A DNA stretch of 21,826 bases, taken from the IMG/VR virus record IMGVR_UViG_3300047552_000539, positions 1-21,826 of that record. The stretch is one strand, 5' to 3'. The translations under genes were made by a program, and so were the position numbers. The notes beneath the pieces were generated by a model. The model was not told the DNA's origin. It ran no database searches and saw nothing but the letters and a program-made list of their open reading frames with translations. Of this stretch, positions 1,107 through 21,826 are shown piece after piece. The DNA comes from a virus. Every line of letters starts with the position of its first letter. Position 1 is the first letter of the stretch.

Positions 1107-1451
1107 ATGGGACCACGCATTAAGCCTGGGACTTTCCCATCGACGCGCATCGGAGTGGGCTCCAGTGGCCCGTCTGACCCGTATGCGGCAGAACACGAGC
1201 GCATCTTCGGGCCGCCAAAGGTCCGAGACCAGGACGTTGTCGAGGAGCTGTCTGCGCTGGCAACTGCTCACGGAACCCCGTCCAGGATCATCGTCGGCCC
1301 CGATATGTTTGAGGCCATCCAGCGCGCCAGCAAGGCTCACGGCGCCTTCCGGTGGTTTGACCTGGACCTGGACAACGTGGTCGTAGCCTTCAGGGGCCTG
1401 GACGTCATCCGAGACGAGAACGCCAAGCCCTGGGAGCGCCGCTGTGAGTAA
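1107..1451 (+). CDS. Hypothetical protein, 114 aa
   Basis: ATG 1107 follows the SSB stop by ten bases, with a GAGG ribosome-binding site at 1099-1102. The same frame stays open upstream through the SSB gene, but that part is a shadow of it. The first 35 residues are glycine, proline and serine-rich ([20 protein letters not shown]) and probably disordered. The rest looks like a small alpha/beta fold with [20 protein letters not shown], then [20 protein letters not shown]. No catalytic motif is evident and I do not recognise the family. Its end overlaps the next gene by eight bases, consistent with coupled translation. Confidence 0.7.
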
Positions 1452-1716
1452 CTCGTACTGCGATGTCGCCGACTGCTACCGACTGCGCCAGCCTGGGAGA
1501 CAGTTTTGCCGGACCCATATGTCCAGGCTGGAGCGCGGTACGCCAATCGCCGCGCCAATCCGCGAGCGGCTGTCTCCAGAGATCGCGCTAATGCGCTCTG
1601 CTCATGGCGTGGCCGATGCTCTGTATAGGTCTGATTTCGCCCTGTTGCGTGCAGTCTGGCGCTGGAATATGGCCGTGCTTCGACTCCGGGAGGCGTACTC
1701 GTGCGATGCTGCGTAG
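1444..1716 (+). CDS. Small CxxxxC...CxxH zinc-motif protein, first of a pair, 90 aa
   Basis: The frame starts at GTG 1444, overlapping the previous gene. Residues 6-25 read C-x4-C-x10-C-x2-H (CDVADC, then FCRTH), followed by MSRLERG. This is the N-terminal zinc-binding signature common in small phage proteins and at the front of some HNH endonucleases. No HNH catalytic part follows; the rest is helical and ends with a tryptophan-rich segment (RAVWRWNMAVLRL). It overlaps the next gene by 16 bases, and that gene encodes a protein of the same layout. Zinc and nucleic-acid binding are likely from the motif, but the function is unknown. Confidence 0.68.
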   Translation: MSNSYCDVADCYRLRQPGRQFCRTHMSRLERGTPIAAPIRERLSPEIALMRSAHGVADALYRSDFALLRAVWRWNMAVLRLREAYSCDAA

Positions 1717-1934
1717 ACGGATGCCACAACTGTCGTGATGCTGGAGACAGATGCCTGGTTCACGAATGGCGCATTAGGCGAGCAGCCAACAGGGAGCTGC
1801 GCGCCATGGGCGGGTCCAGGCTGCTGGAGGCCGGCTTGGCTCTGGCCGGCGCAGACTCCGAGAATGACGAGGAGTATCTCAAGGCTCTTACGGAGTGGGA
1901 GCTGGCCATAATGCGAGCGGTGGGCATCGAGTAG
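1701..1934 (+). CDS. Small CxxxxC...CxxH zinc-motif protein, second of a pair, 77 aa
   Basis: The frame starts at GTG 1701 inside the end of the preceding gene. Residues 3-21 read C-x4-C-x9-C-x2-H (CCVDGC, then RCLVH), almost the same spacing as the upstream neighbour. Its C-terminal helix (EYLKALTEWELAIMR) resembles the neighbour's LLRAVWRWNMAVLRL. The two are therefore probably a tandem duplication that diverged. There is no enzyme motif. It is the last gene before the conserved box upstream of the small terminase gene, so it may end the early or middle transcription unit, although no terminator is visible after it. Confidence 0.65.
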   Translation: MRCCVDGCHNCRDAGDRCLVHEWRIRRAANRELRAMGGSRLLEAGLALAGADSENDEEYLKALTEWELAIMRAVGIE

Positions 1935-1940
1935 GCCAGA

Positions 1941-1976
1941 GTATATCTTGCGGCAGCCGTGCCACATGCTAACGGC
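1941..1976 (+). promoter_or_regulatory. Conserved 16-base box plus start-abutting hairpin upstream of small terminase
   Basis: The box GTATATCTTGCGGCAG (1941-1956) differs by one base from the box at 7809-7824. Both lie 36 bases before an ATG. The stem GCCGT (1956-1960) pairs with ACGGC (1972-1976), ending at the base just before ATG 1977. TATATC could be a -10 element, but no good -35 is present at the expected spacing, so a phage-specific promoter is also possible. No Shine-Dalgarno sequence is seen. Promoter function is inferred; the repeat and its placement are directly visible. Confidence 0.55.
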
Positions 1977-2384
1977 ATGGGTCTGTCTCCCCGACATCTG
2001 CGATTTGTCCAGGAATACCTACGGGATTTCAACGCCACTCGTGCAGCCAAAGAGGTCGGCTATAGCGAGAAGAGCGCCCATGTTACCGGATGCAAGCTGC
2101 TAAAGGATCCCAAGATTGCGGATGCCGTCGAAGAGGGCAAGGCCAGGGTTATCCGCAAGGCCGGATTATCGCTAGAGGAATGCTTCGCTGTCTTCTCCGA
2201 CGTGGCCCTCCACGGCGATCCCAGGGACCGAATTGCCGCCGCCGAGAAGCTGGTCAAGTACCAGCACCGTGTTGCTGACAAGGTTGAGCACAGCGGACAG
2301 ATTGGCCTTCTTGACCTGGTTGCCGGAAGCGTCAAGGAAGACGAGCCCGAGCCCGAGCCGGAGCCTTCTGAGGTCGCCGAGTAA
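1977..2384 (+). CDS. Terminase small subunit, 135 aa
   Basis: The protein matches the Terminase_2 (XtmA-like) small-subunit family: LSPRHLRFVQEYLRDFNATR, then AAKEVGYSEKSAHVTGCKLL and DPKIADAVEEGKA form the helix-turn-helix DNA-binding domain. A central helical oligomerisation region follows, then an acidic tail with repeated Glu-Pro (DEPEPEPEPSEVAE). It should recognise phage DNA and hand it to the large subunit. ATG 1977 was chosen over GTG 1959 because the conserved domain begins directly after it and because the upstream box sits at the same distance as at the scaffold gene. Neither start has a Shine-Dalgarno sequence. The stop overlaps the large-subunit start (TAATG). Confidence 0.9.
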   Translation: MGLSPRHLRFVQEYLRDFNATRAAKEVGYSEKSAHVTGCKLLKDPKIADAVEEGKARVIRKAGLSLEECFAVFSDVALHGDPRDRIAAAEKLVKYQHRVADKVEHSGQIGLLDLVAGSVKEDEPEPEPEPSEVAE

Positions 2385-7710: not shown

Positions 7711-7782
7711 ACCACTATCGTCTAAAGGGTAGGATCGCGTTATCGTAAGCGCGAGATGCGAGTTCGAACCTCGCTAGTGGCA
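7711..7782 (+). tRNA. tRNA-like gene, isotype unclear, abnormal anticodon loop
   Basis: The acceptor ACCACTA (7711-7717) pairs with TAGTGGC (7775-7781) over six pairs with an A-C mismatch at 1-72, and the discriminator is A7782. The D arm has GTCT and GGAT around an AAAGGGTA loop. The T arm is perfect: GCGAG, TTCGAAC, CTCGC. The anticodon stem closes as CGCGTT/AGCGCG with a six-base loop ATCGTA, or as a five-pair stem with an eight-base loop; no pairing gives seven. If T33 is the T of ATCGTA, the anticodon would read CGT (threonine), but this is uncertain. CCA is not encoded. Total length is 72 bases, one short of usual. It may be a degraded tRNA or a tRNA mimic. Confidence 0.7.
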
Positions 7783-7808
7783 GGCCCTGGCAATCGCCGG
7801 GGCCTTTT
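7783..7808 (+). terminator. Rho-independent terminator directly after the tRNA-like gene
   Basis: GGCCCTGGC (7783-7791) pairs with GCCGGGGCC (7796-7804) over nine pairs with one T-G wobble, a four-base AATC loop and TTTT. The stem begins at the base after the tRNA discriminator, and the next regulatory box begins one base after the T run, so it marks a clean boundary between transcription units. Confidence 0.88.
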
Positions 7809-7844
7809 GTATAGCTTGCGGCAGGTCGGGCCCATTCTTGGGCC
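7809..7844 (+). promoter_or_regulatory. Conserved 16-base box plus start-abutting hairpin upstream of scaffold
   Basis: GTATAGCTTGCGGCAG (7809-7824) matches the box at 1941-1956 at 15 of 16 bases. GGCCCA (7829-7834) pairs with TGGGCC (7839-7844) around TTCT, and the stem ends one base before ATG 7845. There is no Shine-Dalgarno sequence. It lies immediately after a terminator, exactly where a new promoter would be needed for the capsid genes. TATAGC could be a -10 element; no convincing -35 is seen. Confidence 0.6.
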
Positions 7845-8621
7845 ATGTCCGACACAGCCCAAACGACTCCCGAAGTATCCAGTGCTGCCGCTGCGGCTGT
7901 GACCGCTCCGGCCGCTGAACCTGTTGCCGCTGCCGCCTCAACCCCGGCCGCTGCGCCAGTCGCAACTCCAGCTCCAGCAGCCAGGCCCGCGACGGCGGAC
8001 AAGGCTCCAGAGCCGGCCAAGGATGCCGAGAAGCCCGCCGAGGTGGCGTCACTTCTCAAGGCTCCCGAGAAGTCCGACGCACAGAAGGGCGAAGCAGACA
8101 AAGCTGCCGAGGAGAAATCCGTTAAGGCGGATGTCGAGATCGCTATCCCCGAGGGGCTCAAGGTCAATGACGAAGTGCTGTCTGAGTTCAAGGCCATCGC
8201 CAAGGAGGCGGGTCTGGACTCCAAGAACGCTCAGAAGTTCTTTGACCTCGAGATGAAGGCTGCGCAGGCGCGCGAGGCCGAACAGGCCAGGGCGTTTTCG
8301 CAGTGGAAACAGGACAGCATTGCCAGCCTGAAGAAGGAGTGGGCCGGGGCGTTCGAGCAGAACGTTGCGCACGCGCAACGCGCTATCGACCGTTTCGCGC
8401 CTCCTGGTCTTCTTGAGGCTCTTGGTGGCCTTGAAAACCACCCGGCCGCGATGCAGTTCTTTGCCGCTATTGGCAAGGCGTTTGGCGAGGATTCTCTTGC
8501 TAGCGTCGCTAACGCCAAGAGCGCTCCGGCCGTTGACCATCAGCGAGGAATTACCGGCAACGCGCTTGTAGATAACCTGGCCGGCTCGCTGTACCCGTCC
8601 ATGAACAAGCAATCCGACTAA
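7845..8621 (+). CDS. Capsid scaffolding protein, 258 aa
   Basis: The gene lies immediately before the major capsid gene, the standard scaffold position. Residues 1-95 are an Ala/Pro/Val-rich, lysine- and glutamate-containing disordered tract. A folded segment follows: IPEGLKVNDEVLSEFKAIAK, the EAGLDSKNAQKFFDLEMKAA helix pair, a WKQDSIASLKKEWAG helix, and a conserved-looking FAPPGLLEALGGLENHPAAM region with a final Asp/Lys tail. This order (disordered front, EAGL helices, then a GL-xNHP segment near the end) is typical of scaffolds from podo- and siphoviruses. It would organise capsid subunits during procapsid assembly and then leave. The ATG lacks a Shine-Dalgarno sequence and abuts a hairpin. 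Confidence 0.85.
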   Translation: MSDTAQTTPEVSSAAAAAVTAPAAEPVAAAASTPAAAPVATPAPAARPATADKAPEPAKDAEKPAEVASLLKAPEKSDAQKGEADKAAEEKSVKADVEIAIPEGLKVNDEVLSEFKAIAKEAGLDSKNAQKFFDLEMKAAQAREAEQARAFSQWKQDSIASLKKEWAGAFEQNVAHAQRAIDRFAPPGLLEALGGLENHPAAMQFFAAIGKAFGEDSLASVANAKSAPAVDHQRGITGNALVDNLAGSLYPSMNKQSD

Positions 8622-11922: not shown

Positions 11923-12942
11923 GTGTACACGAGCGCACAGACACAGGTGGGAATCATCAACCGCGCGCTGGCTCGCTGCGGCATCAAGCAGTTCATCACG
12001 GCAACAACGGACACGTCCCAGGAGGCCATCGTTAGCATGATGTTCTGGGACCAGGTCCGGCAGCAGCTTCTTGGGGCGTTCCCCTGGAAGTTTGCGATTC
12101 GCCAGGCCCCTCTCGAGGAGTTCGCTCCGGCATGCTCGGCCGTTGAGCGCATCGGGACGGGGCCTGCCGGCTCCACGCTGATTACGGCGCTGGCTGCCTC
12201 TAGCGACCTTGAGGGCAGCTATAACGTGGTCGGCCAGGTGACTACGGCTGGCGGAACGTCTACGGGCTACATCAAGTGGAGCGTTGACGGCGGCATCTCG
12301 TTTGGCTCTCCCGTCGTCTATTCGTCCGGAGCGCAGACCATCGGAAACAGCGGCGGAACCGGCGTTGAGTTGGCTTGCGGCTCCGGCCTCGAGATGACCG
12401 GGACAATCGAGGTCACTCTGGCTAGTGGGCAAACGCTGGTTGCCGGCGACATATACAGGTTTACGGCTACGGATGGCCTGAGCTTCGAATATAACTACGG
12501 TTTTCTTTTGCCGGCCGACATGCTGATTGGGCGGTACATTTGGTCCGGCGCCCGCTCGATTCGTCCGGACCAGCGCATCCCGTTCAAGCGTGGAAACTTT
12601 GGCAGCCTGAACGTGCTGTGGACCGATATCGACCCGTCCGACACGCCCAAGATTATCTACGTCGAAGACGTGACGGACGCCTCGCGCTTCCCTGCCGGCT
12701 TCGCGGATGCGCTGGCATGGAAGCTGGCCTACGAGATTAGCGGCCCGCTCAAGGCCGAGCCCGCCCCGCAGGCGCTGATGCAGGCGTACTTATTGGCAGT
12801 CAACGAGGCCCGCTCTGTCGATTTCATCGAGTTTCAGGAGGATATGCCTCCCGACTCCGAGGTTGTTGCTGCGCGCGGAGACGCCTGGAATCCCTACCAG
12901 GGCTCAACGTATCCGCTCGGCTGGGGCTGGCTGCCCCTCTAG
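11923..12942 (+). CDS. Tail adaptor / tail tubular protein A (gp11-like) with inserted beta domain, 339 aa
   Basis: GTG 11923 has AGGAG at 11913-11917. The N-terminal part (TQVGIINRALARCGIKQFIT, then FWDQVRQQLLGAFPWKFAIR) and the C-terminal part (YNYGFLLPADMLIGRYIW, SRFPAGFADALAWKLAYEIS) match the T7 gp11 family, the ring that joins portal and tail nozzle. Between about residues 72 and 187 is an extra beta-rich domain (YIKWSVDGGISFGSPVVYSS, GDIYRFTATDG) that ordinary gp11 proteins lack. Its stop overlaps the ribosome-binding site of the next gene. Adjacency to the nozzle gene strongly supports the call. Confidence 0.9.
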   Translation: MYTSAQTQVGIINRALARCGIKQFITATTDTSQEAIVSMMFWDQVRQQLLGAFPWKFAIRQAPLEEFAPACSAVERIGTGPAGSTLITALAASSDLEGSYNVVGQVTTAGGTSTGYIKWSVDGGISFGSPVVYSSGAQTIGNSGGTGVELACGSGLEMTGTIEVTLASGQTLVAGDIYRFTATDGLSFEYNYGFLLPADMLIGRYIWSGARSIRPDQRIPFKRGNFGSLNVLWTDIDPSDTPKIIYVEDVTDASRFPAGFADALAWKLAYEISGPLKAEPAPQALMQAYLLAVNEARSVDFIEFQEDMPPDSEVVAARGDAWNPYQGSTYPLGWGWLPL

Positions 12943-17028: not shown

Positions 17029-18987
17029 ATGCCTAGGATTCCGGTTCCCGAGGCCCCACAGCAGGTTTCAGAGGGGCCGCGCATGGCCGGCGCGGCTGAC
17101 GCCCCTGCCGGAGCGTTCGGGGAGGCTGCCGCCAAAGGCCTCATGAACGCCGGCGCTGGCCTCAGCAACCTGAGCCACGGCCTCCAGCAGTACCAGGCCC
17201 ACCAGGACCGGGCCGACAACTCGGCCGTAGAGGGAGCCCTTGCCGAGTACGGAAACGGTCTCAACCAGGCCCTCGCGTCGTATAAGAGCCTGCAGGGCGA
17301 GAACGCTCTCAAGCACTATGACGACACGCTGACGGCGATGGAGAGCCACAAGCAGGCCATCTCCCAGCGCCTTGGCAACGATAGGCAGCGTGCTCTGTTC
17401 AACCGAAGGGCTGGCCTCGAGGCCAACCGCGTTGACCGCTCCATGGTTCTACACCAGTCCGAGCAGATTGGTGCGCTTGAAGATCAGAAGTTCAAGGCGC
17501 GCGAGGCATCCGTTCTGGATTCGATTAGGCTCAGTGCGAACGATGATATCTCGGCCGTCCAGGACGCTATTGGAGAGTTTGCTCAGAACGAGCTTGGAGC
17601 GTCTCACGAGAGGCGTGGACTGTCCTATGAGGCCAGGCCGTTGGTCGAGGCCGAGTGGAAGGCCAAGGCATACGGAGAGGCCCTCCGGGCCATGATTCGT
17701 CCCCCCGACGGGAAGGAGCCCAGGCCAGACCGCGTGCAGGCGTTCTTTGAGGCCCACAAGAAGGACCTGGATCCCAAGGATGCCGAGCAGCTTGGCGAGG
17801 TCGTTCGCGAGATCGGATTCCGCCAGCGCGTTGAGGAGCACGTCTCCGGGCTTCTCGGAAAGCACTCCGAAGGCGTTCGGCTACCAAATGGGAATCTGAT
17901 TGCCAAGGTTGACGGTCCTGCAATCGTTGATGCCGCCGAGCAGCTGAAGTTGCCAGAGAAGGAGAAGGAGCGCCTTAGAACCCTGGCTCGTAGCATTGCC
18001 ACGGCAACCGAGGGTCAGTGGTCGAAGCAGCAGCAGGCCGTTTATGAGTCTGCCATGACGGACTACCTTAGAAGCCCTACCAGGGGCGCGGCCGGGCTTC
18101 GTGCGATTCCTCCCGAGACCAGAACGTGGCTCGTCGAGCATGCCCCCGACAGGTGGGAGGCAATCGAGCGCAAGGCGCAGGCTGCAGACGAGCGCGCCAA
18201 CAGGCGAATTCGCGGCTCGGCAGAGGATAGGCGCTGGCAGGAGGAGCAGGACCAGGAGGCCTGGTATCGCTATCAGGAGATGTCTTCAAAAAACGAGGCC
18301 GAGGCTTCCGAGGCCAACGTTGAAGAGGAGTTCCCGTCTGCATCTCCGAAGATGGCCCAGCGCATCAGGGCCGCACAGCAGAAGGACAAGAACAACGTTA
18401 GCGGCGGCGGCCGGGTTGGCTACTCGGATACGAAGTCAATCGCCGAAGAAGAGGCCGGCAGACTCGGATTTACCGTCAAGGGGTCTGCCAACAAGAAGCG
18501 TCTTGAGTCCTTCCAGGGATGGGTACGCGACTATTACGACTCGTTCAGGACAAAGAACAAGCGCAATCCTACGCGCGACGAGGTTCGAGAAGCTGTTGCG
18601 TCAGGCCTTGTCCTTGGTGACGAAAACGGAGACGAGTGGTTTGGCGGGTCTGCTAAGTACAAGTTTGAGACCAAGCCGGGCGACAAGTTCGTTCCGTATG
18701 CGAAGGAAAAGCAGAAGAGCAGGCTTTCGAATGAGGACAGGCCTTCCGCCGAGCCAATGCCTCGGGACATGAAGCTTGGAGACGAACCGGCGCCGAGCAA
18801 GGAAGACTCAGCCAAGGCGCTTAATAGCCTGCGCAAGAAGGTGTCTTCCGGGGCCAAGAATAATGCGCGCAAGGCCGAGAAAGAGGCGGCAGTAAATGCT
18901 ATTCTAGACGAGCATCCAGAGTATAAGGATAAAGACGGAAAGCTGTCTAAAGAGTTCTTCGTTGAAATGAAACGCAGGGGCTTCTAA
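17029..18987 (+). CDS. Internal virion / ejection protein (gp15 position), 652 aa
   Basis: ATG 17029 lies two bases after the gp14-like gene with AGGAG just upstream. The first 60 residues are Pro/Ala/Gly-rich (RIPVPEAPQQVSEGP), followed by a mostly helical, highly charged body. Near residues 487-520 a conserved-looking segment (ESFQGWVRDYYDSFRTKNKR, then NPTRDEVREAV) matches a C-terminal pattern seen in other phage ejection proteins. The last 60 residues are Lys/Glu-rich. No peptidoglycan hydrolase motif is visible in it. Gene order and composition place it as the gp15-type internal core protein; sequence similarity to T7 gp15 itself is not evident. The stop overlaps the next start (TAATG). 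Confidence 0.78.
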   Translation: MPRIPVPEAPQQVSEGPRMAGAADAPAGAFGEAAAKGLMNAGAGLSNLSHGLQQYQAHQDRADNSAVEGALAEYGNGLNQALASYKSLQGENALKHYDDTLTAMESHKQAISQRLGNDRQRALFNRRAGLEANRVDRSMVLHQSEQIGALEDQKFKAREASVLDSIRLSANDDISAVQDAIGEFAQNELGASHERRGLSYEARPLVEAEWKAKAYGEALRAMIRPPDGKEPRPDRVQAFFEAHKKDLDPKDAEQLGEVVREIGFRQRVEEHVSGLLGKHSEGVRLPNGNLIAKVDGPAIVDAAEQLKLPEKEKERLRTLARSIATATEGQWSKQQQAVYESAMTDYLRSPTRGAAGLRAIPPETRTWLVEHAPDRWEAIERKAQAADERANRRIRGSAEDRRWQEEQDQEAWYRYQEMSSKNEAEASEANVEEEFPSASPKMAQRIRAAQQKDKNNVSGGGRVGYSDTKSIAEEEAGRLGFTVKGSANKKRLESFQGWVRDYYDSFRTKNKRNPTRDEVREAVASGLVLGDENGDEWFGGSAKYKFETKPGDKFVPYAKEKQKSRLSNEDRPSAEPMPRDMKLGDEPAPSKEDSAKALNSLRKKVSSGAKNNARKAEKEAAVNAILDEHPEYKDKDGKLSKEFFVEMKRRGF

Positions 18988-21826
18988 TGGCACAGGAAAA
19001 CGACCTCGCTGGCGCCGATAACAACCAGGAATCGGCGCAAGACACCTCTGCGCTTGAGAACGATCCGGATATTCTTGAGGCAGTAGCAAGGCGAAGCTCC
19101 GGGCAGACAGAGCCGCAGGACGCCGTTGATCCGGACATTGCTGATGCGCTGCAACGCCGGGAGCAGAAGTCCATTAGGAGCAATCGCATCAAGGCCCTGT
19201 ACGAAGCCGACCGATTCGGAATCGGAGAGCGTGGACAGCGCGTCATCAGAATGGCCGAGAAGACCGGCCTACATCCGGACGTCATCGACGCAAACCTGGA
19301 CAAGTTCAGCAAGGCCGCCGAGGTCTCCGAGTACGACACGGACAGGCTTGAGCGTGACTATCCAGACCTGGTCGAGACGCTACTTGAGCATCAGCACCTG
19401 GCCGGGCCGATTCTGAAGGATCCGGCGCTTAGGGATATTTCCGAAGAACTGCGAACTGGCGAAGTTGCGTCTCGGGTTGAGCCTGGTAGCTTCGTCAAGC
19501 GGGGGCTCACTTTCGCGGCTGACGCAGTCGGAAAGCTCGGATCCGCCATGGAGTCTGGCTTTGCCGCGTCGTCTCAGGCCGAGGTTGGCCGAAAGATGGC
19601 TGGCTCTGCCGCCCTGTTCGGCGACGAGAAGTTGGCCGGCGAAGCCAAGAAGATGCAGGCCGCTTCCGAAGAGAGCGCCAATAAGGCCATCTCTACCCTT
19701 GAGTCTGTTCCCGAGGCTAGGAAGCCAAACATCATCCAGACTGTTACGGCTCCCGAGGCGAAGCTTGAGGGCGTCGAGCGCCTGAAGATTCTGCCTGCTG
19801 CATACAAGTATTATCGCAGGGACCACGATGCAAGCGTTACGGCTTTCAAGGTAATGATTGGCAAGATCCGTGGACAGGATGTTTTCGAGAACGAAAAGAA
19901 GCTCGTCGCTATGGAGCAAGAGCTTGGCGACGTTCCGTGGTACGGCCAGGGTCCGGCCATGCAGCTTGGGCTTGATGCGGTTCAGGCGTTCGCCTCTAAC
20001 CCGGAAAGCCTTGGAGCGCAGGCCCTTGGCGCTGCCGCAGGACTTGGCGTTGGTAGGATGTTCGGGCCCATGGCTGGCAGAAAGGCTGCCAAGGTTGTAG
20101 GCAGGGCTCTTGGATACACGGCTTCTTTCGTTGCGGAGGGCGGAAGCGCCTATCGACAGTTCAAGAAGGTCAAGGGGCCAGACGGAGAACTCGACGAGCC
20201 TACGCTGATTGGCGCGACCATCTTCTATGCGGCAATCGCCTCCGCCATCGAGGTTGGCGGCAACGAGGCGGAACTCAGGATGCTGGGGCCAATCGGCGAC
20301 AAGCTGGTTGGGCTTGAGAAAAAGGAGGTTGCGCGCTGGCTGGCCTCAGATGGCAAGTTCAGGACGCTGCTCAAGGAGGCTGGCAAGCGTTGGAGTTCCA
20401 GACTTGTGGCTGGCATGTATGCGGAGGGCAAGGAGGAGGCCCAGCAGCAGACGCTGCAGAACGTTATTGATTACGCTCTAAAGCTCAAGATGGGCGAGAC
20501 GTCCGGCCCTGACGTTGCAGCCATGCTTGGTGACGCGGGCGGAGCCTTTGTCGCTGGCGGGATTGGCGCCGCAGGCCTTGGGCCAATCGGATATGGCAGC
20601 CATGTTGTCGGTATGTCCATCGAGCGCGCCCAGCAGTCCAGCTCCGCGCAGCAAGTCTCCGCAGTCCACAAGGGCACGCAAACGCAGCTCGCGAAGGCCA
20701 GCCCGGCTGGCTATGCCAAGGTAGTCGAGAAGGCCACCGGCGAGTCTGGCGCCCCAGTAACGCATATGTACGCCGACGCCGAGCAGTTGCTGACGCTGTT
20801 CCAAGAGGCCGGCCAGCCGCTCGAGCAGGCCGCCACCGATCTGCTCGGGCCGGACGGATACAAGAGAATCAACGCCGCCATCGTTACCGGGTCGAAGCTC
20901 GAGATCCCTGTTGGCGAGTGGGCCGCGAAGATTGCCACGAAGCCGCTTGGCGACGCTCTGGTTAACGGCGGGCACGTCATCGGCCATGCATTCATGGACA
21001 CTCCGGCCCAGGCCGCGCAGAAGCAGGCCTCGATTCAGACCGAGGCAAAGGCGTTGGTCGAGCGCGCCAAGTCTGAGCAGGCTACCGACGCAGAGCGCGA
21101 GTTCATGCAGGTAGTCCAGTCGCAGCTGCTAAAGTCCTACGAGCGAGAGCAGACCGGCAAGGACGGCAAGACTCGCAAGCAGCACATGAAGGTCGAGGAC
21201 AGCGCTGCCAGCGTTGAGCAGCTGGCTTCGGTAGTCGTCACGATGGCGAAGCGTAGCGGCGTGCCAGTAGAAGACATGATGCGTCAGTACGTCGTCACGG
21301 TCCAGCGGCACCAGGACGGCGCCCAGCAGGCCGAGGCGGCCCAGCAGCAGCCTCCAGTTAATCGCACCGAGGCGTCCGGCATTCTGGAGCGGGCCTATCG
21401 CGAGATGGACGACGAGGGAAAGCGAAACCTGTATTACCGGGACGCCACAACAGACCTACTGCACGAGCGCGGAATCAGGGACATGCCCGCCGACGAGGCG
21501 CGGCCGAACTACGGCGTTCTTAGCTTCGGATACAAAAAGGATCTGAACGACGTTAAGGGAAAGGGGCACGACTTCGCAGACGACGTCTTCAGGGACATCG
21601 CCAAGGCGCTGCACGAGATTGATCCGAACGCCGGAAAGGTCGGAGGGGACTTGTGGCTTCCTGCCTTCGGTGACCAGGCCGAGATGGATGCGCTCATTGA
21701 GCAACTCCGCTCCAAGCTGCCCGAGGGCCTCAAGGACATTCCGCTCGTCGGCACGGTCATGGAGCGCAAGGCGGGCGAGGACTGGACCGCAACCAAGCAC
21801 CGTGGCGGCGACACGTTGTCTGCCCA
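18987..21826 (+). CDS. Giant ejection protein with GGDEF-like domain, truncated by window end (946+ aa)
   Basis: The frame opens at ATG 18987 overlapping the previous stop and stays open to the last base. Residues 1-140 are acidic and helical, including a DALQRREQKSIRSNRIKALY stretch. Three Gly/Ala-rich hydrophobic segments follow at about 335-375, 403-430 and 510-545 (GAQALGAAAGLGVGRMFGPM, TLIGATIFYAAIASAIEVGG, AFVAGGIGAAGLGPIGYGSH). A segment KLEIPVGEWAAKIATKPLGD (about 633-652) resembles one found in large ejection proteins of other podoviruses. Residues about 840-910 form a degenerate GGDEF-like domain (KKDLNDVKG, then KVGGDLW at 884-890). It occupies the gp16 position and is probably injected into the host. 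The rest of the gene lies outside the window. Confidence 0.85.
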   Translation, partial: MAQENDLAGADNNQESAQDTSALENDPDILEAVARRSSGQTEPQDAVDPDIADALQRREQKSIRSNRIKALYEADRFGIGERGQRVIRMAEKTGLHPDVIDANLDKFSKAAEVSEYDTDRLERDYPDLVETLLEHQHLAGPILKDPALRDISEELRTGEVASRVEPGSFVKRGLTFAADAVGKLGSAMESGFAASSQAEVGRKMAGSAALFGDEKLAGEAKKMQAASEESANKAISTLESVPEARKPNIIQTVTAPEAKLEGVERLKILPAAYKYYRRDHDASVTAFKVMIGKIRGQDVFENEKKLVAMEQELGDVPWYGQGPAMQLGLDAVQAFASNPESLGAQALGAAAGLGVGRMFGPMAGRKAAKVVGRALGYTASFVAEGGSAYRQFKKVKGPDGELDEPTLIGATIFYAAIASAIEVGGNEAELRMLGPIGDKLVGLEKKEVARWLASDGKFRTLLKEAGKRWSSRLVAGMYAEGKEEAQQQTLQNVIDYALKLKMGETSGPDVAAMLGDAGGAFVAGGIGAAGLGPIGYGSHVVGMSIERAQQSSSAQQVSAVHKGTQTQLAKASPAGYAKVVEKATGESGAPVTHMYADAEQLLTLFQEAGQPLEQAATDLLGPDGYKRINAAIVTGSKLEIPVGEWAAKIATKPLGDALVNGGHVIGHAFMDTPAQAAQKQASIQTEAKALVERAKSEQATDAEREFMQVVQSQLLKSYEREQTGKDGKTRKQHMKVEDSAASVEQLASVVVTMAKRSGVPVEDMMRQYVVTVQRHQDGAQQAEAAQQQPPVNRTEASGILERAYREMDDEGKRNLYYRDATTDLLHERGIRDMPADEARPNYGVLSFGYKKDLNDVKGKGHDFADDVFRDIAKALHEIDPNAGKVGGDLWLPAFGDQAEMDALIEQLRSKLPEGLKDIPLVGTVMERKAGEDWTATKHRGGDTLSA

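Follow-up and report, generated by a model that had tools for sequence, protein, structure and literature searches.

A repeated box before packaging and structural genes as the probable upstream half of a phage-specific promoter

Introduction

How are the packaging, capsid and tail genes of this phage switched on, and how is translation begun at those of them that lack a Shine–Dalgarno (SD) sequence? The question is raised by the start of the small terminase gene in a virus fragment of 21,826 nucleotides (IMG/VR record IMGVR_UViG_3300047552_000539; 'the window' hereafter means this whole stretch of DNA). A preliminary description of the window reported a 16-base box ahead of two genes and proposed that it is a phage-specific promoter for late genes whose short leader begins with a hairpin and starts translation in an unusual way. 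To our knowledge, how late genes are switched on in this phage group has not been worked out.

Results

The phage and the 56-kb contig

A near-identical phage is represented in IMG/VR by a contig of 56,126 bases, which differs from the window at nine positions, none of them at the box sites; coordinates prefixed 'g' refer to this 56-kb contig read in the direction of the window. Eight of the nine differences fall within 250 bases (11994–12244), a cluster that suggests recombination between close phage variants. The contig encodes a serine integrase, an HTH protein resembling a repressor and replication functions, followed by the terminase, portal, scaffold, capsid and tail proteins, a giant protein and tail-fibre-like proteins. 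Because of the serine integrase and the repressor-like gene, the phage is probably temperate. The giant protein, of 3256 amino acids (L102:11803-18909, minus strand, continuing in the window at 18987-21824), has one Pfam match, ddrB-ParB; a giant gene is also found in the equivalent place in the related prophage described below and in phage CP2. Near the repressor-like gene is an open reading frame (ORF) with a long run of ADLSGADL-type pentapeptides that 15-base tandem repeats encode (L104:11510-12388, plus strand), and a gene for a putative replication protein (L104:6475-7320, minus strand) contains an in-frame 21-base repeat (approximately GAGCCGGGAAAAGGACAGTAC) near its middle.

A box heads three late gene blocks

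The box sites of the window and their surroundings comprise the following features.

1941-1954, plus strand: putative upstream promoter box, copy 1, GTATATCTTGCGGC; one base varies among the three copies on the contig
1977-2384, plus strand: small terminase gene, ATG start (Pfam Terminase_2, E 1.8e-18; SD energy +0.6 kcal/mol), proposed leaderless
7711-7782, plus strand: tRNA-like gene directly upstream of copy 2 (ARAGORN; anticodon given as two bases)
7782-7805, plus strand: hairpin resembling an intrinsic terminator, with a T run behind it (10 pairs, of which 8 are G-C; loop of 4)
7809-7822, plus strand: putative upstream promoter box, copy 2, GTATAGCTTGCGGC
7845-8621, plus strand: scaffold-like gene preceding that of the major capsid protein, ATG start (SD energy -2.5 kcal/mol), proposed leaderless

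The full 16-base box is found at 1941-1956 (GTATATCTTGCGGCAG, no mismatch) and at 7809-7824 (GTATAGCTTGCGGCAG, one mismatch). The single recurrence with one change that had been described is accurate, as a search of both strands of the window that allowed up to three mismatches found no further copy (0.10 expected), and none of 100 shuffles contained two. The spacing had also been read correctly: the ATGs at 1977 and 7845 each lie 36 nt after the start of the box. The second gene has 39% identity to a locus immediately before a homologous capsid gene. The tRNA that precedes the terminator-like hairpin and the putative promoter at copy 2 is odd or degenerate. The hairpin itself would insulate copy 2 from upstream transcription, in a region where terminator-like sites are no more numerous than expected by chance.

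A third copy, GTATAGCTTGCGGCGA, is present only on the 56-kb contig (g44328; copies 1 and 2, at window positions 1941 and 7809, correspond to g17508 and g23376). It closely follows the stop codon of the giant gene, precedes the ATG of a 409-aa gene by 51 nt, and has the first 14 bases of the box in common with copies 1 and 2. All three copies are intergenic and on the late (plus) strand, and copies 1, 2 and 3 stand in front of the terminase block, the scaffold/capsid block and the tail-fibre-like block respectively. In 200 shuffled genomes the 14-mer GTATANCTTGCGGC was seen once (about 0.005 expected per genome), as against the three copies present. As copy 3 was unseen when the pattern was first described, it is an independent confirmation of that pattern, including a stem ending at base -1.

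SD signals and inverted repeats at the box-headed genes

SD pairing is absent or very weak at the small terminase and scaffold genes, whereas most other late genes have energies of about -4 to -10 kcal/mol, in agreement with the preliminary description. In contrast, the gene behind copy 3, with its longer distance between box and ATG, has a strong SD sequence, AAGGAGG. An in-frame GTG at 1959, which would also be close to a hypothetical transcription start at 1955, was considered as the terminase start and rejected, copy 2 having no equivalent.

Inverted repeats abut the start codons at both window sites.

1956-1960, plus strand: 5' arm GCCGT of the copy 1 inverted repeat
1972-1976, plus strand: 3' arm ACGGC of copy 1, ending at base -1
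7829-7834, plus strand: 5' arm GGCCCA of the copy 2 inverted repeat
7839-7844, plus strand: 3' arm TGGGCC of copy 2, ending at base -1

The reported stems, ending at base -1 in both copies, are thus real, with 5 bp in copy 1 and 6 bp in copy 2; the copy 3 stem, also ending at -1, is GGGGAG/CTCCCC extended by GCCT/AGGC. Perfect stems of at least 5 bp end at -1 at 1.7-3.8% of all ATGs of the phage, and stems of at least 6 bp at 0.3-1.2%, so that each stem taken singly is weak evidence. When the 22 nt before the ATG were folded, copy 1 was unremarkable (8.5% of ATGs fold as well), copy 2 was unusual (0.4%), and the leader of copy 3 also folded unusually well (0.15%).

The preliminary description placed the hairpin at the beginning of a short mRNA leader. 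In a model of this kind a TATAnC within the box would be the -10 element, transcription would start at about box position 15, and a 22-nt hairpin leader reaching to the ATG would stabilize the mRNA or replace the SD sequence. The TATA-like hexamer does exist, there are purines at the right distance from it (positions 15-16), and the unusually strong folding of the copy 2 and copy 3 leaders also speaks for it. Against this, the hairpin energy of copy 1 is ordinary, the AUG itself is paired in the copy 1 fold, and the strong SD sequence of copy 3 argues that the hairpin is not, as a rule, an SD substitute. Further evidence on this point comes from a related prophage.

A related prophage has the same layout with a different box

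In a sample of 147 genomes of the class containing Anaeromyxobacteraceae, one (G080, 10.2 Mb) carries a related prophage, P080, inside a 631-kb contig. P080 has the same structural module as the window phage, with identities of 48% for terL, 46% for portal, 45% for capsid and 28-46% for the giant protein. The loci L165 and L166 (G080:C54, about 534000-565000) are a chromosomal prophage of this phage group and give a hint at the group's host range.

At four P080 genes (small terminase, scaffold, the gene that follows the giant gene and a fourth gene) a box, GGAAAGCGTCCC (GGAAAGGCTCCC in one copy), is followed after exactly 10 nt by GAnTCT and then, after 6-7 nt, by the start codon. The hexamers are GACTCT, GAGTCT and GAATCT, at -12/-13 of the start. 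With up to two mismatches, GGAAAGCGTCCC-N10-GANTCT occurs exactly four times in the 10.2-Mb genome, in all cases within the prophage and on one strand. All four genes lack an SD sequence (-1.5 to -2.2 kcal/mol). A 5-6 bp inverted repeat abuts the start at three of the four sites, compared with 2.5-4.8% of ATGs in that genome, and was not found at the fourth. The box of P080 differs from that of the window phage, yet three equivalent places are occupied, and in a start-aligned search the box-hexamer pairs rank top in both genomes.

These sites speak against a -10 element within the box, since the P080 box at the equal distance, GGAAAGCGTCCC, cannot be one; the second conserved element of P080 is instead the hexamer 6-7 nt before the start, and one P080 promoter is without a hairpin. 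Together with the points raised above, this makes a hairpin-first leader an unlikely account of the locus. The P080 layout predicts the position of a corresponding hexamer in the window phage.

1965-1970, plus strand: -10-like hexamer CATGCT, separated by exactly 10 nt from the box and by 6 nt from the ATG; position predicted from P080
7833-7838, plus strand: -10-like hexamer CATTCT, spaced as at copy 1 (10 nt from the box, 6 nt to the ATG)

At copy 3, GAGCCT stands 10 nt after the box, and 21 nt separate it from the ATG. Both phages have a 10-nt gap between box and hexamer, and the hexamers of both fit NANNCT. With the position preset from P080, 11 of 15 bases in the three window-phage hexamers agree with GAnTCT (a simple binomial gives about 1e-4). 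Taken without P080, the three window-phage sites show a hexamer no better than chance (conserved columns A, C and T), so the -10 assignment depends on comparison with one prophage. NANNCT keeps the A and the T that are most important in sigma-70-type -10 elements. A good sigma-70 -10 (TAtaaT) is found at the sites of neither phage, and a TTGACA-like -35 with a TATAAT-like -10 16-18 bp apart is absent from both 1941-1977 and 7809-7845.

A -10 element about 12 nt before the start is a published signature of leaderless genes (PMC3160421). CATGCT and CATTCT, at -12 to -7, occupy this position, although their sequence is degenerate; at the copy 1 site the arrangement suggests that transcription may start on the gene's own start codon. 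The missing SD sequences at copies 1 and 2 are better explained by leaderless mRNA, and the fixed 36-nt spacing would then simply be the distance from promoter to +1. By the same rule copy 3 would have a short leader; copy 3 does have a strong SD sequence, and its AAGGAGG begins where the transcript would start. Across both phages, the SD energies of the six genes proposed to be leaderless range from +0.6 to -2.5 kcal/mol, compared with -12.1 for the leadered third gene and -4 to -10 for most other genes.

Six of the seven sites in the two phages have an inverted repeat of 5 bp or more directly before the start, against a background of 2-5%; the repeats are too frequent for chance. In the layout obtained from the comparison, the -10-like hexamer falls inside the hairpin loop. 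If +1 is rightly placed, at the start codon or 14-15 nt before it, then at all three sites the 5' arm precedes the late +1 and the 3' arm lies at the ribosome site, so that hairpin RNA would form only in transcripts reading through from upstream. At copy 1 the hairpin is thus probably outside the late message and not in a short leader, contrary to the original proposal. Predicted accessibility of the starts is far worse in read-through RNA than in RNA beginning at the proposed +1, but does not leave the range seen at ordinary ATGs in this GC-rich genome; a scan of accessibility by 5' end did not by itself pick out a single transcription start.

Candidate activators and other readings of the box

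A phage-made factor acting at the box could be encoded close by.

1444-1934, plus strand: a pair of short Cys/His-rich ORFs, of 90 and 77 aa, immediately before the small terminase gene

Both ORFs have weak similarity (E 4e-4 and 8e-5, each from a single comparison) to a 148-aa P080 protein that has a weak C-terminal HTH match and is encoded shortly before the small terminase gene, one gene further away. Their candidacy as late activators is speculative. No MotA or AsiA match was found in Pfam among the proteins scanned from both phages, which covered part of the ORFs, and no sigma factor was recognized among the early proteins in that same partial set.

The latter result bears on the suggestion that an alternative sigma factor, phage-encoded or of the host ECF type, reads the box, the 10-nt gap and the hexamer as a whole. 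ECF promoters have GGAA at -35 with a short -10, and P080 resembles them in having GGAA at -35 and a short -10; such a factor would have to be the phage's own, as no other GGAAAGCGTCCC-N10-GANTCT exists in the host genome. The sharing of NANNCT by two phages with unrelated boxes, however, fits a common host factor at -10 combined with a phage-specific factor upstream, and we give the alternative-sigma reading little credence. That the box serves not as a promoter but as an operator or some other signal in DNA or RNA (for packaging, recombination or processing) is hardly credible, for while promoter activity is a prediction from sequence, such a signal would not account for boxes at the heads of three late blocks in two phages, on one strand and at a fixed spacing from starts that lack SD sequences, nor for copy 2 directly after a terminator-like hairpin. 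A hairpin promoter for an N4-type virion RNA polymerase was also considered and discarded: ddrB-ParB, the only Pfam match of the giant protein, is no such polymerase domain.

Distribution among wider relatives

The phage group lies near myxobacterial prophages and Xanthomonas phage CP2. The search of the complete genome and of relatives that had been proposed as a check yielded the third intergenic copy on the contig, but the box was absent from the relatives examined. An exact scan of IMG/VR for the box returned 56 stretches, about the number expected by chance, and the intergenic layout was present only in those of the window phage itself. In the 147 genomes of the class the box was at control level only, and no convincing copy was found in 29 distant relatives (terminase identity 40-52%). 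No repeated box or start-aligned pair stood out in CP2, Mx8, BPP-1, Tr60 or several IMG/VR contigs, and scans of IMG/VR for the portal and tail proteins returned the window phage alone. Scaffold starts in relatives are mostly coupled to the preceding gene or SD-led, so the promoter before the scaffold gene would be specific to this lineage.

Four distant relatives in IMG/VR (L060, L061, L063 and L064) have TTGCCG-N17-CATATT/CAAAAT (CAWAWT) 7-9 nt before the small-terminase ATG, no apparent SD sequence, and an imperfect, weak stem abutting that ATG. They may have an equal start geometry at the small terminase gene with an ordinary sigma-70-like promoter.

Discussion

The box very probably supplies the upstream half of a promoter that is specific to the phage and serves packaging, capsid and tail genes. 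This part of the original proposal is well supported by three late-strand intergenic copies heading late blocks and by the analogous set of promoters in the prophage. In the fuller reading, which we consider likely, a 14-bp element, GTATAnCTTGCGGC, at about -36 to -23 would replace the normal -35, and a weak -10 hexamer, NANNCT (CATGCT, CATTCT, GAGCCT), would follow exactly 10 bp later. The upstream element would be bound by an activator (or sigma factor) made by the phage, and host RNA polymerase would be brought in by it, much as by MotA at the middle promoters of T4. Transcription of the terminase and scaffold genes would start at the A of the ATG, giving leaderless mRNA that needs no SD sequence, while that of the tail-fibre-like gene would start about 14-15 nt upstream and produce a short leader beginning AAGGAGG. 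The inverted repeats would form only in RNA reading through from upstream; that they hold back early translation of late genes is a guess by analogy. This layout would explain the absence of SD sequences at copies 1 and 2 and their presence at copy 3, the 36/36/51-nt spacing, and the equal geometry in a prophage with an unrelated box. Copy number, strand, position, spacing, the lack of SD sequences and the recurrence of the layout in P080 are seen in the sequence itself; the transcription start, the activator, the late timing and the role of the hairpin are inferred. Several observations stand against the reading: the -10 hexamers are poor where T4 middle promoters need good ones, the hexamer of the window phage taken by itself is at chance level, the box is absent from the distant relatives examined, the fourth P080 site has no inverted repeat, and start accessibility in read-through RNA is not clearly worse than average.

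A broader possibility, which we put forward tentatively, is that these sites belong to a late-start module of the lineage, in which phages exchange the box but retain the host-type -10, the placing of +1 at the start and the abutting repeat. Late genes would then be translated only from their own late transcripts and be locked in read-through RNA.

The rule of box, 10 bp, NANNCT and start codon predicts transcript starts to the base, and would explain why some late genes in two phages lack SD sequences and one has it. It also separates the part that is swapped (the upstream box, probably with its activator) from the part that is kept (the host -10, the start-codon geometry and the inverted repeat). 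The classic leaderless gene of a phage is lambda cI; if the rule is true, leaderless transcription would here head whole structural operons, not a repressor gene.

Comparison with known systems

T4 middle promoters have a MotA box whose centre is at -30 and which is separated from the -10 by 12 +/- 1 bp (PMC2988021). The proposed promoters are similar in that a phage element near -30 would replace the -35 at a fixed gap from the -10 (here 10 bp), and their -10 retains the A of position 2 and the T of position 6. They differ in serving late structural genes, in the sequence and length of the box, in their poor -10 and in numbering only three copies; moreover, the proteins scanned include no MotA/AsiA homologue, and at copies 1 and 2 transcription would start at the start codon.

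For the T4 genes e, soc, 49 and I-TevI, a late promoter overlaps a hairpin that, in read-through RNA, occludes the ribosome site and holds back early translation (PMC3014915). Here too the late promoter would lie within or beside the 5' arm, giving a late RNA without the hairpin and a longer RNA with it, and the SD sequence of copy 3 is hidden in the hairpin. Unlike the T4 messages, the late RNAs of copies 1 and 2 would be leaderless and not SD-led, and inhibition is in our case a guess, the predicted accessibility being unexceptional.

With leaderless bacterial genes (PMC3160421), the terminase and scaffold genes have in common a -10-like hexamer at -12 to -7 and no SD sequence. In place of a TANNNT box with a normal -35, however, they have a phage-specific upstream box, and the arrangement heads several late structural blocks.
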